Shown: piece after piece, positions 503 to 5,491 of the stretch | How the letters are laid out: each line of letters begins with the position of its first letter | Position numbering within the stretch: the stretch's first letter is position 1 | From: an uncultured Mycoplasmatota bacterium | GTDB taxonomy: Bacteria; Bacillota_I; Bacilli_A; Izemoplasmatales; Izemoplasmataceae | Length of the DNA: 64,000 bases | Direction: 5' to 3' | Assembly (NCBI GenBank): GCA_913062645.1 | Contig: CAJXVW010000001.1 | Span: forward strand, 1,240,001 to 1,304,000 | Program-made: the position numbers and the translations under genes | Notes under the pieces: model-generated | The model's database searches: none | What the model saw: only the letters and a program-made list of their open reading frames with translations | Told to the model about the DNA's origin: nothing

Positions 503-2494
503 TCAGTCAAATGTGACCTCGGTATAGGTGTCGTAACGGTGCCCGTCGATGATCAACAGAATGCTGTAGGTTCCGCTTCGTTCGTACTCGTTGAGATGGA
601 AGGTCGTCGTGACCCGCTCGAGCTCGTTGACGGGCGGTACGAGCGCCGATTGAGAAAGCGGTGTGATCGGGATGTGATACATCGTTTCACCACTCGCATC
701 ACGGAGTACGAGAAACACCGTCTGATCGATGTCGAAGCGTCCCTCTACCACCAGTTGGTTGCGGTCTTTGAGAAGCATCAGGTCATAGCCTGGTGGTACC
801 GTTTCAAACACCGTCAAGCGTTCGGTGATCGATCCATCGTAAGGGGTGGCGACCAGTTGCTGGCCGCGCACGTCCGGTTCTCCGAACACGACGCGCGTCT
901 GCGGTCCATACGGATTGATCCGAAGCGCTTTGGCGACGTTGGTCGCAAGTCTCAGCACATACACTTCCGCATCGTTCTCAAGGATCACCGTTACACTCGA
1001 CAACGACAACGGATCCTCACCGTCGTAGAGCGGTGCCGCGACACCGATCGTACTGGCGGTGGTGCTGGCGATGCCGCCACTGTGGAGCAGATAGGTGTCC
1101 TCGGCCAGTTCTGTCGCGTTGGACAGATAGGGACTGTAGGACAACGCCGTGATGGACTCGCCCGGCGTTGCGTCGAGGGTGGCGGTCCGGTTGTCGAGAT
1201 CGATGTCGTAGATGCGCGCATAGGAGCGGTTCATCGTCGGCAGGACGTAGTTGGCAAGCAGTTTGCTGCGATGGTTGCCGTTGTCGAACAAGAGGATGCG
1301 ACCATCGGCCATGACGTCGATGCTGTTAGGTCCGTAGAACCAGTTGTTGTCCTGTGGATCAACCAGAAACAACGGCACTTTCGACGATGCCCACCGCGTC
1401 GTGTCGCCAAGCAGATACACCAGTTCATCAGTCAGCCGGTCGATGGCGATGACGGCATCTTTGTGGCGACTGGCGATCAAGACGAGATCGTCTTGTGGAT
1501 CGTAGGCGACCGATGTGACATGCACCCAGTCGTCGAACGTGAACATCTGGTTGAAGCCATCGGCGATGTCCAGATAATCATTCATGTCCCACGAGCGGAT
1601 GACGCGTCCCGTCGTCCTTTCGATCTCGATGACGAGATCCTGAACACCGTTGGTGAAGGTATTGCTGATGGTGAGCAGGTTGCCGCCCGGCAGTTCGGTG
1701 ACGTCACCATACACACCGCCGGGGACCTGATATTCGACATGGATTTTGCCCAGCAGATCGATTTCATAGAACCCGCTGGCATAATACGGCTCTTGGACAA
1801 AGCGCTCGGTGGAAACGAGATAATGCCCGTTCATGAGCGGCTCCATCACTCCGGCAAACGAGGTCGTCAGGTACCAGCGCACGTCTCCGAAGGCATCGTA
1901 GGCCAAGGCAAATTGATCGGTGGATGGTACCATCACCATCCAGTCATCGCCGAAGAACGCATGGGTGGTGACAATCGACTCGGGCGTCGGAATCGTTTCC
2001 GGCAGTGCCGGCGTCTGCGTGGTGATGGTGGTCAACAGTTCGCCCGGACCACCGGTCGCGGTGTCATAGGCAAGCAGTTGGATGACGTTGCTGTGTCCGG
2101 CATACAGACCCAGTACGGGAATTTGGTGGACGGTCGCAAGCGGCGTATGAAACTCGAGTGTCGCTTCTTCCGTCTTGCCGACCACGCGCACCACGTAACG
2201 GGTCGCCGTGTCGGTTTCAAATAGAATCAGACCCGACAGCGGCGAGATGCCGTACGGATCACGAATGAAGTAGGGGTTGATTTCACTGTACATGCCATCG
2301 CGATAGGCATCGCGGAACTCACTCTCGAGCGCGATTTGATCCTCCAACAACGTCGTTGCGTGAGGCACCTCGGTGCGCACCGGATCGGCGAACCCATAAA
2401 TCAAGAACGCGATGATCCCGAGCACGATGAAGGCTCCCGGTACAAGGATGATGACGGCGTACTCTCCGAACATTCGTTTCCACAGATTACGCAT
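503..2494 (-). CDS. Membrane-anchored arylsulfotransferase-like protein (AssT family)
   Basis: The 663-residue product resembles bacterial arylsulfate sulfotransferases, which move sulfate between phenolic compounds by a ping-pong mechanism. One membrane segment (about 12-34) would anchor an extracellular domain. The later part has beta-propeller character with repeated 'NGHYLV'/'GGNLLTISN' blades and family-type motifs DWVHVTSV (about 322-329), [11 protein letters not shown] (342-352), [19 protein letters not shown] (388-406). I start at the ATG at 2492-2494, preceded by AAGGAGGG, instead of an upstream start lying inside trmD. It overlaps the trmD stop by 8 bases and sits where the trmD C-terminal domain should be, suggesting insertion. 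I did not map the catalytic histidine with certainty, and substrates are unknown. Confidence 0.75.
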
Positions 2495-2984
2495 CGGGAT
2501 GTCCCTCCTTCTCGTTGGATCCAAGCGCATGGCGGACGATGTTGTCGACAATTGCCATCGCGGCCAGTTCCCCGCCGGTCATGACGAAGTCGCCGATCGA
2601 CACTTCGCGATCGAACAAATCACGAATCCGCTCGTCAAATCCTTCGTAGTGTCCGCACAAGACGATCAGATGCTCCGCACGGCGCAGTTCCTTCGCGAGA
2701 GCGGCATCAAATCGTTGGCCCTGCGGGGTCACGATCAGTTTGGTTGCGCGTTTGTATCCGGCGATGCTTTGGAGCGCATCGCGAATCGGTTGCACCTGCA
2801 ACACCATGCCGGCGCCGCCGCCATAGGGGGCGTCGTCGACCTTGCCGTGCTTGTTGGTGCTGAACGTGCGAAAATCAATCAAGCGGAGTTCGACATCGCC
2901 ATCGACGCACGCCGCTCGCATGCGATCGCCATCGATGAACCCATCGAACAATTCCGGAAACAAGGTGAGGATGTCGATTCTCAC
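2487..2984 (-). CDS. trmD: tRNA (guanine-37-N1)-methyltransferase, C-terminally truncated
   Basis: TrmD methylates G37 of tRNAs using S-adenosylmethionine and prevents +1 frameshifting. The N-terminal trefoil-knot domain is well conserved: PYGGGAGM (53-60), TPQGQ (86-90), [10 protein letters not shown] (110-119), [12 protein letters not shown] (129-140). Similarity stops near residue 150; the product ends at 165 residues where the family normally has about 230-250, so the linker normally carrying the catalytic aspartate and the tRNA-binding C-terminal domain are absent. The last codons double as the ribosome site of the next gene. The GTG start (2982-2984) overlaps the rimM stop by 4 bases and has GGGAGGG upstream. 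It could be non-functional, or a shortened active form. Confidence 0.85.
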
Positions 2985-3484
2985 AGCAATCCCTCCCAAG
3001 CATCCAACAGAATCCGTCGTTGGTCCTTGTCGACGGACTTGACGAACACCTTGTTGAAGGGAATCAGCGCGTCTTTGGCGTCATCGCGGCGGACTACGAG
3101 CAGCTCGCCCTGCGGCACTTGACGGATATCGACGCAGGTGCCGACAAGGTGATCGGTGTAGACGTCGAGACCGATTAGTTCGTCGAAATAGAACTCGTCT
3201 TCGTCGTCAAGTTCGTGAATCTGTGTTGCGTCAATGTACAGGTCCGAACCCTTGTAGCGTTCGACCTGATTGATGTCGGTGAACTCGCGGAAGGTGACAT
3301 GTTGCAAGCCCTTGACGGTGCGCACCGACTGGACGGTAACGGGGATCAAATCACCACGAAAAGCGACATGCAGGGTCGTACCCGGCGCATATCGCTCCAC
3401 GATGAAATCGGTATGGGACTTGATTTTCACCGTCCCACTCAGTCCGTGGGTATTGACAATGGTACCAATCAAGACGCGTTCCAT
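2981..3484 (-). CDS. rimM: 16S rRNA maturation factor RimM
   Basis: RimM helps mature the 3' domain of 16S rRNA and binds ribosomal protein S19. The 167-residue protein has the N-terminal RimM barrel beginning '[21 protein letters not shown]' (residues 1-21, the G-G turn is typical) and a C-terminal PRC-barrel-like domain containing '[11 protein letters not shown]'. Length is normal for the family. The ATG is preceded by GAGGTGAT. It starts 16 bases after the NatB-like permease gene, so it probably shares the natAB transcript, and its stop overlaps the start of trmD by 4 bases, indicating translational coupling. Confidence 0.95.
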
Positions 3485-3500
3485 GGAATCACCTCGCTGG

Positions 3501-4703
3501 TTATTTGCTGAACATCACTTTTTCGGATTGGAACAGTTTGTTGATGATGAAGATCAGGATCGCAACATAGACCACGCTCGAAATCACCATCAAGAGGAAA
3601 TGCAATGGAACGATTTCAAACGTCATGATGCCGATCAGCATGTTGACGCTGCTGTAAATGGGAACCAGATACATCAGCGGATTGGTCGCGGCTTCGCCGC
3701 TGAACATCGAACTGACACCGACGATGACGCTGAGGAAATAGAGCGGCAGAATCATCATCGACGCTTCCTTGATCGACTTGGCATACGCACTGATGGCGCT
3801 GACCAGGCCAACGATGACGAGCACCGTTGCGAGCAGCACGCCGAAGATCGACAGATACTCGCCGACACCGTAGATGTTGGCATCGAGCTCTTCGCCCTGC
3901 ATCAGCATCGGCAGGCTCAGGAAGATGCCGATGAACGAGGACGTCGCGCTCATCAGGGCGATGATCGAGAGGCTCATGACTTTGCCGACGGCCAGTTCGC
4001 CGCGTTTGATCGGCGTGACGAGCAGCGTCGCGATGGTGCCGCGTTCCTTCTCGCCGGCGATGCTGTCGGGACCGATCGTCATCGCACCGGAAAACAGGAA
4101 CATCACGATCAGCATCGGCAGCAGCATCGCGAAGCTCTGGCCGCTGGCGCGCTGTTCGTCCATGATGATGTGGTCCGGATTGGTGAGATCGGTGTGGAAG
4201 GCGAACATGTCTTCGCCGAGACGGTCGTAACTGATGTCAAAACCGTAGGCGTTGAGATGACTGAGCAGATAGTAATAGGCGCTGTTGCTGTAGCGTTCGC
4301 CAGGGTTGTAGCTGGTCATCACTTCGGGAACGACGTATCCGGGCTGATCGTATTGTGAAATGGTGGTTTCAAAGTTTTCGGGGAAACGGATCAAGACGTC
4401 GATGTCGCCTTCGAGAATGCCGGCTTTGATGTCATCATAAGGCATGTCATCGAAGTCGTGGAACTCGACATCGCGCTGATCGTCGCCGACGATCTGATCA
4501 CGCAATGTGTCCGGCATGTTTTCGGTGTAGAGGATGATCGTATGGCTTTCCACTTCATCGACTTGATTGCCGATCGCGTTGCCCATGAACGAATACATCA
4601 GATAGATCGCCAGACCAGGCAGGAAGATGGCGGTGAAGATCAGTCGCTTGTCGCTCATCACGCGGTAGAATTCTTTCTTGAATACGGTCAGGATGTTGTT
4701 CAC
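3501..4703 (-). CDS. natB: ABC-2 type transporter permease, NatB-like
   Basis: This 400-residue membrane protein has the NatB layout: one N-terminal membrane segment (about 20-42), a large outward domain (about 45-190), then five or six membrane segments. The 'GEKERGT' cytoplasmic motif near residue 220 is characteristic of NatB-type ABC-2 permeases, which export sodium or small organic compounds together with a NatA ATPase. It overlaps natA by 4 bases, so the two are translated together. The pair interrupts the otherwise conserved khpA-rimM neighbourhood. The sodium substrate is assumed by analogy only. Confidence 0.85.
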   Translation of the reverse strand: MNNILTVFKKEFYRVMSDKRLIFTAIFLPGLAIYLMYSFMGNAIGNQVDEVESHTIILYTENMPDTLRDQIVGDDQRDVEFHDFDDMPYDDIKAGILEGDIDVLIRFPENFETTISQYDQPGYVVPEVMTSYNPGERYSNSAYYYLLSHLNAYGFDISYDRLGEDMFAFHTDLTNPDHIIMDEQRASGQSFAMLLPMLIVMFLFSGAMTIGPDSIAGEKERGTIATLLVTPIKRGELAVGKVMSLSIIALMSATSSFIGIFLSLPMLMQGEELDANIYGVGEYLSIFGVLLATVLVIVGLVSAISAYAKSIKEASMMILPLYFLSVIVGVSSMFSGEAATNPLMYLVPIYSSVNMLIGIMTFEIVPLHFLLMVISSVVYVAILIFIINKLFQSEKVMFSK

Positions 4704-5491
4704 GCCAGATCACCTCCGAGCAGATTTTCTTCCTCAACGAGCTGGAAGAACAGCTCCTCGAGATCGGCGCTTTGTTGTTCCTTGCGGACATTGGCGAGCG
4801 TGTCGCAGCGTTTCATCTTGCCGTTGATGATGATGCCGACGCGGTCGCACAGTTTTTCGACGACGCTCAGGATGTGCGTCGACAGGATGACCGTCTTGCC
4901 CTGGTTCTTGAGTTCAATCAGATAATCGGTGACGCTGCGCGCCGTGAGCACGTCGAGACCGTTGGTCGGTTCGTCGAAGATGATGAAATCGGGATCGTGA
5001 ACAAGGCTGATCGCGATCGATGTCTTCTGTTTCATTCCGCTCGACAGTTCACCGACTTTGACTTCCATGAACTCGTCGATGCCGAAGCGTTTGAACAGTT
5101 CCATCTTGCGGTCTTCGATGGCGTCTTCGGCGATGCCGTGAAGTCGTGAAAAATAGCGAAACAGATAGTTTGGCGTGAAATGGTCTTCGAGTTTCAGTTC
5201 GCTCGTCAGGAACCCGATTTTGCCGCGGACTTCCTCATCGGCGGTGACAACGCTGCTGCCGCCGACGATGACATCGCCTTCGTCGGGTTTGATGAGCGTT
5301 GAAATCGTGCGCAAACAAGTGGTCTTGCCGGCGCCGTTGGGTCCGAGCAGACCGAAGATCTCACCGGGATAGGCCGTGAACGAGACATCGTTGCAGGCGA
5401 CTTTGACGGTGGCGTCGGTCTTCTCCAGACGTTGCTGTTTTTTGGACAGTTTGAAGCGTTTGGTCAGATTGCGTACTTCGAGTGTGTTCAT
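4700..5491 (-). CDS. natA: ABC transporter ATP-binding protein, NatA-like
   Basis: The 263-residue cytoplasmic ATPase powers the NatB-like permease encoded next. Walker A GPNGAGKT (50-57), the signature LSSGMKQK (149-156), Walker B with the following D-loop IIFDEPTNGLD (170-180) and the switch histidine in 'ILSTH' are all intact. An insertion rich in Lys/Gln (about 14-27) after the first strand is unusual. The ATG has AGGAGT upstream. A strong promoter and an 18-base palindrome just precede the gene, so natAB and the downstream rimM-trmD-assT genes probably answer to a repressor. Confidence 0.9.
   Translation of the reverse strand: MNTLEVRNLTKRFKLSKKQQRLEKTDATVKVACNDVSFTAYPGEIFGLLGPNGAGKTTCLRTISTLIKPDEGDVIVGGSSVVTADEEVRGKIGFLTSELKLEDHFTPNYLFRYFSRLHGIAEDAIEDRKMELFKRFGIDEFMEVKVGELSSGMKQKTSIAISLVHDPDFIIFDEPTNGLDVLTARSVTDYLIELKNQGKTVILSTHILSVVEKLCDRVGIIINGKMKRCDTLANVRKEQQSADLEELFFQLVEEENLLGGDLA

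Follow-up and report, generated by a model that had tools for sequence, protein, structure and literature searches.

The near-universal tRNA methyltransferase TrmD protects the reading frame in protein synthesis; most of the bacteria studied cannot live without it, and it serves as an antibacterial target. It is described as a homodimer that takes up two AdoMet molecules and a single tRNA, a stoichiometry that leaves the role of the second site open. In the Haemophilus influenzae TrmD-tRNA-sinefungin structure, one tRNA is bound per homodimer, with subunit A giving the AdoMet knot, D50 (which reads G36), Y54, G59 and Q90, and subunit B giving R154, the general base D169, S170, F171 and R183 together with the D-stem contacts of S198-G199-x-H201 (PMC5372744). 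Changing F171 to alanine abolishes activity (PMC5372744). In characterised TrmD, both catalysis and the binding of tRNA require the linker and C-terminal domain (CTD) of the partner subunit (PMC5372744, PMC9508554), and the SPOUT domain on its own has been reviewed as probably insufficient (PMC9508554).

In the eukaryotic tRNA m1A58 methyltransferase Trm6/Trm61, thought to derive by duplication of a homo-oligomeric TrmI-type ancestor, one subunit binds AdoMet, and its partner, which no longer does so, contributes to the binding of tRNA (PMC6382703). The yeast SPOUT paralogues Upa1 and Upa2 (COG2106) are a duplication pair assumed to be heterodimeric (PMC8994135), and it has been suggested that one of them is an inactive subunit (PMC1829167). 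For the nosiheptide-resistance methyltransferase, methylation persists in engineered wild type/R135A dimers, in which only one of the two SPOUT subunits is catalytically functional (PMC4409310). Here we describe two partial trmD genes, trmDn and trmDc, in the genome of an uncultured Mycoplasmatota bacterium. The first lies in the window, a 64,000-nucleotide stretch (contig CAJXVW010000001.1, positions 1,240,001 to 1,304,000). Judged by the residues that each has kept, they probably constitute a naturally split TrmD, in which an AdoMet-binding subunit and a catalytic, tRNA-binding subunit would form an obligate heterodimer with a single active site.

The truncated operon gene and its junction with assT

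The trmDn gene (2487-2984, minus strand) starts with a GTG at 2984 overlapping the stop codon of its upstream operon partner rimM (2981-3484, minus strand; TIGR02273, 123.7 bits; overlap of 4 bases) and runs for 165 codons to a TAA at 2489-2487. The first-pass annotation, made from the letters of the window, had described a trmD that ends at 165 residues without its CTD, with similarity stopping before the linker and with no nearby frame for the missing domain, and all three points were confirmed. Residues 1-156 of TrmDn match positions 1-156 of 233 in the trmD profile TIGR00088 with 183.2 bits, below the equivalog cut-off of 195 bits, and the PF01746 match covers profile positions 8-135 of 195, ending at 133-135. 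When the whole genome (1.99 Mb in two contigs, 99.7% complete) was searched in six frames, no CTD was found near trmDn.

In what is left of the protein the AdoMet knot and G36/G37 pocket are intact, and the linker and CTD are absent. An AlphaFold2 model built on an alignment of distant full-length TrmDs reached a mean pLDDT of 86 and a pTM of 0.84, with pLDDT below 50 at residues 160-165 only, and Foldseek ranked TrmD structures first, with TM-scores of about 0.82-0.85 across the model. Thus, truncated TrmDn is modelled as a complete SPOUT domain followed by a short loose tail. The protein is 59-62% identical to the TrmDs of its genus, compared with 74-80% among the genus orthologues themselves, indicating that TrmDn evolves faster; four otherwise conserved N-domain positions have been lost from it.

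The truncation junction (2487-2520, minus strand) was read directly and compared with the congeners. It consists of the 3' end of trmDn carrying an AAGGAGG and overlaps the start of assT (GATGCGTAA). The gene ends in the codons CAT GCG CTT GGA TCC AAC GAG AAG GAG GGA CAT CCC GAT GCG TAA, and the ATG of assT is found at 2494, inside GATGCGTAA. The AAGGAGG in the last trmDn codons is likely the ribosome site of assT, as had been proposed from the window. The arylsulfotransferase-like assT itself (503-2494, minus strand; PF05935 and PF17425) has same-site homologues in two congeners (G001 and G002) and is context rather than part of the enzyme.

trmDn is the copy remaining in the rpsP-rimM-trmD-rplS operon. 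Comparison with close relatives, along the lines of a check that the first-pass annotation had proposed, found a full-length trmD at the same site in all three same-genus genomes (G001, G002 and G003). In G001 and G002 the operon reads rpsP-khpA-ABC-ABC-rimM-trmD(full length)-assT-rplS, while G003 has a full-length trmD and no assT. Because a complete trmD precedes assT in G001 and G002, it is most likely that assT arrived next to an intact trmD and that this lineage lost the CTD afterwards. The insertion of assT into a ribosomal-protein operon, between trmD and rplS, is shared by this genome with two of the three congeners. An ABC exporter pair between khpA and rimM (3501-5491 in the window) is present in every genome of the genus that was examined, as well as in G029, another member of the family.

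The full-length trmD of the congeners raises the possibility that the real gene is full length here as well, with an artificial deletion around 2490-2520 and with TrmDc as a dead paralogue. However, the junction has a well-spaced ribosome-binding site and a stop/start overlap, as in a natural operon, the genome is assembled in two contigs and nearly complete, and a paralogue that holds exactly the missing half would have to be a coincidence. Misassembly at this junction is judged unlikely because the ribosome-binding site is properly spaced, the synteny matches that of the relatives and the paralogue is complementary, leaving the artefact, as a full account of both genes, with a very slim chance.

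A second, degenerate TrmD-family gene

PF01746 searches of the genome detected two genes only, trmDn and trmDc, both of them partial, so that an intact second TrmD elsewhere was rejected. A search for a second TrmD or a Trm5-like enzyme, as the first-pass annotation had advised, thus brought up a second but degenerate TrmD, and neither an intact TrmD nor a Trm5: no protein of the genome exceeded the PF02475 cut-off, and Trm5 was discarded as a substitute since the two matches were sub-cutoff and belonged to RlmD/RumA-like proteins. The need for m1G37 remains, given that G36-G37 is carried by tRNA-Pro (CGG, TGG and GGG) and tRNA-Leu (TAG) of this genome; tRNA-Arg (ACG) carries it as well.

The trmDc gene (contig C1, 1351925-1352536, minus strand; 203 residues) lies outside the window, about 109 kb from trmDn, a distance at which co-expression of the two is not obvious. 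Its product matches TIGR00088 at positions 66-227 of 233, the entire CTD included, with 146.8 bits, and PF01746 at profile positions 49-195. By the TIGR00088 threshold, therefore, neither TrmDn nor TrmDc qualifies as a single-polypeptide TrmD; both score above the broader PF01746 gathering score. The N-terminal 43 residues of TrmDc resemble a TrmD start with very weak scores against solved TrmDs; a 23-residue deletion has removed VDDxPYGGGxGM, and of the AdoMet motifs SPQG, GHYEG and TGGE none is left. By contrast, the linker and CTD are complete, with R124, S135, D139, S140, F141, R153 and S168-G169-N170-H171 as the equivalents of R154, S165, D169, S170, F171, R183 and the SGNH motif in E. 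coli TrmD numbering.

The gene sits in an island with the order tRNA-Val(CAC), beta-lactamase-like gene, trmDc, P-loop-kinase-like gene and tRNA-Ala(GGC) (L116:8077-10689), and its start overlaps the stop of the beta-lactamase-like gene. This neighbourhood is not shared by the beta-lactamase-like relatives in G002 and G004. The P-loop-kinase-like protein beside trmDc matched nothing in NCBIfam, and its relatives are patchy.

The two parts of TrmDc have diverged very differently from the genus orthologues: the CTD is 60-68% identical to them (63-75% among themselves), while the N-domain is only 27-34% identical. In the CTD tree TrmDc is placed beside genus and family sequences on a branch of 0.19, with support of 90 for an enclosing clade, and in the N-domain tree it falls next to G002 on a branch of 1.79 with low support (54-65). 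GC3 is 0.66 for trmDc and 0.70 for trmDn, as in their respective neighbours, compared with 0.21 for the trmD of G001. With tree supports that are modest, the genus and family affinity of the CTD and the host-like GC3 leave a recent foreign source of TrmDc unsupported. The difference between a GC3 of about 0.65-0.72 in this genome (503-3484 in the window) and the 0.21 of the G001 trmD (L113) represents a very large within-genus shift. The host-like GC3 of both genes indicates that their frames stayed open through this compositional shift, a history that does not resemble decay.

Complementary losses and the predicted dimer pocket

TrmDn and TrmDc were aligned with 33 full-length TrmDs of the same order (31 distinct, with two loci entered twice), and columns conserved in at least 95% were counted, giving 48 in the N-domain and 21 in the C-terminal part (C-part), 69 in total. 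TrmDn retained 44 of the 48 N-domain columns and 1 of the 21 in the C-part, while TrmDc retained all 21 of the latter but only 11 of the 48 former, 16 being deleted. Full-length TrmDs, examined by leave-one-out, retained at least 90-92% in either part. Combining the N-domain of TrmDn with the C-part of TrmDc (pocket A) preserves 65/69 conserved positions compared with 12/69 for the reverse combination (pocket B), a difference with a Fisher p of about 1e-21 that is indicative only, as linked sites are treated as independent.

The residues known to line the tRNA-bound pocket follow the same division. The subunit A residues D50, Y54, G59 and Q90 and the knot motifs GHYEG and TGGE can all be found in TrmDn but no longer in TrmDc. 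An exception is R52, replaced by A in TrmDn; the genus has Y at this position, so that R52 is not conserved there either. TrmDc in turn has the subunit B residues R154, D169, S170, F171, R183 and S198-G199-N200-H201, plus S165. Of the features that mark a TrmD, the AdoMet knot with the D50 loop is thus supplied to the pair by TrmDn, and the D169-S170-F171 linker with the helical tRNA-binding CTD by TrmDc; the two are paralogues of which one is without AdoMet-binding residues, following a Trm6/Trm61-like logic. By this residue count, all losses fall on one of the two dimer pockets, and the other is left intact. Two copies of TrmDn would have neither F171 nor the CTD nor a clear D169 between them, and two copies of TrmDc would be unable to bind AdoMet. 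Because the losses hit one pocket and neither homodimer would have a complete site, we infer an obligate heterodimer; the pairing of TrmDn with TrmDc, the activity of the pair and its essentiality are likewise inferred from these sequences.

From the window, the truncation had been read as either a deletion with compensation elsewhere or a working minimal TrmD. Compensation is the reading that is supported, and would be provided by a degenerate TrmD that has kept the missing half. If TrmDn were instead a working minimal TrmD on its own, TrmDc would be a paralogue with another job, such as a tRNA-binding regulator. Every AdoMet-site motif is kept in TrmDn, its model is that of a complete SPOUT domain, and minimal SPOUT enzymes exist, RlmH being an example (PMC9508554). 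In one alignment D164 of the TrmDn tail also comes to lie opposite D169; however, we regard this alignment as weak, and TrmDn has neither F171 nor a CTD. The general base, F171 and the tRNA grip come from the partner linker and CTD in characterised TrmD (PMC5372744), and it is exactly the linker and CTD residues, and not others, that TrmDc retains. The minimal enzyme is disfavoured because the CTD-bearing paralogue keeps 21/21 positions and because the CTD and linker of a partner are needed in characterised TrmD, and we regard it as improbable.

The pattern of loss also bears on whether m1G37 has been lost or become dispensable here, with both genes drifting toward pseudogenes. Both TrmDn and TrmDc evolve faster than their orthologues, and some bacteria tolerate loss of m1G37 by means of suppressors. 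However, both frames are intact with a host-like codon composition, the G36-G37 tRNAs are still encoded, and the losses are non-random, each protein keeping nearly all conserved columns of one part and TrmDc few of the other. Ongoing decay is therefore considered very unlikely.

A heterodimer might also form with TrmDc as a specificity modulator or a loose accessory that brings the CTD in trans, in which case no knot-knot interface would be needed. The heavy erosion of the TrmDc N-domain, with its low identity and knot deletions, would allow for an altered native interface, but TrmDc keeps a recognisable N-domain with an R154 equivalent, which would be needless for a pure CTD adaptor. We consider such an arrangement extremely improbable.

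We hold with considerable confidence that duplication and complementary loss, leading to an obligate TrmDn:TrmDc heterodimer that makes m1G37, would be the whole explanation. Duplication of an ancestral trmD in this lineage would have been followed by the loss of complementary halves from the two genes. The operon copy would have lost the linker and CTD while retaining both AdoMet knot and G36/G37 pocket, and the distant copy would have lost the AdoMet site and the VDDxPYGGGxGM loop while retaining R154, the D169/S170/F171 linker and the tRNA-gripping CTD. TrmDn would then act permanently as subunit A and TrmDc as subunit B, with one active site per heterodimer, and the predicted enzyme would make m1G37 on tRNA-Pro, tRNA-Leu and other G36-G37 tRNAs.

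Occurrence and comparison with known systems

Overlapping surveys of relatives, class, phylum and family, covering about 550 distinct genomes, found no other true TrmD split, and the arrangement is known from one genome. Thirteen other genomes had two PF01746 matches or a partial one. Five of these (G029, G251, G337, G522 and G543) were set aside as partial matches at or near contig ends, a position confirmed for G029 and G543 and deduced from coordinates for the other three, and in the remaining eight (G085, G155, G226, G256, G326, G420, G466 and G512) the second match was sub-cutoff. No PF01746 match was present in G366, G266, G436, G078 and G189, each at least 95% complete; these may be without a TrmD, or the gene may fall in a gap of the assembly. 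A code 4 genus has a very divergent TrmD (L198:276-983, minus strand; also L189 and L190), and in the TrmD of G536 the catalytic DSF is changed to ESF and TRP to APP. A TrmD naturally encoded by two genes was not described in any of the papers searched, an absence that is not proof. Annotation pipelines would probably call the present genome devoid of an intact trmD.

If the pair works, evolution has removed the second TrmD site, in both components, and the cell lives; half-of-the-sites use of TrmD would become directly testable, and AdoMet binding and tRNA binding would be separable, with one function per subunit. It would also be a clean bacterial example of the route proposed for Trm6/Trm61, in which complementary loss turns a homodimer into an obligate heterodimer.

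TrmDn and TrmDc share the family, and trmDn also the operon, of the canonical TrmD homodimer (TIGR00088/PF01746), and the active-site residues are all present across the two; unlike it, they are encoded by two genes, neither of which reaches the TIGR00088 cut-off or could complete the site as a homodimer. The pair is thus best assigned to the TrmD family as a pair, neither member alone fitting the single-polypeptide definition. RlmH resembles TrmDn in consisting of a SPOUT domain only but is a homodimer acting on 23S rRNA, whereas TrmDn has TrmD-specific motifs and its high identity to the genus TrmDs. The nosiheptide-resistance dimers are laboratory mixtures of a different enzyme and not a natural split. 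Upa1/Upa2 are likewise a SPOUT pair from duplication and a presumed heterodimer; they differ in being ribosome-assembly factors for which methylation is undemonstrated and, in the text consulted, complementary domain loss is not reported. Trm6/Trm61 provides the combination of an AdoMet-binding subunit and an AdoMet-free, tRNA-binding subunit that is predicted here. However, Trm6/Trm61 is eukaryotic and not a knotted SPOUT enzyme, and in TrmDn/TrmDc one subunit has physically lost a domain that the other kept.
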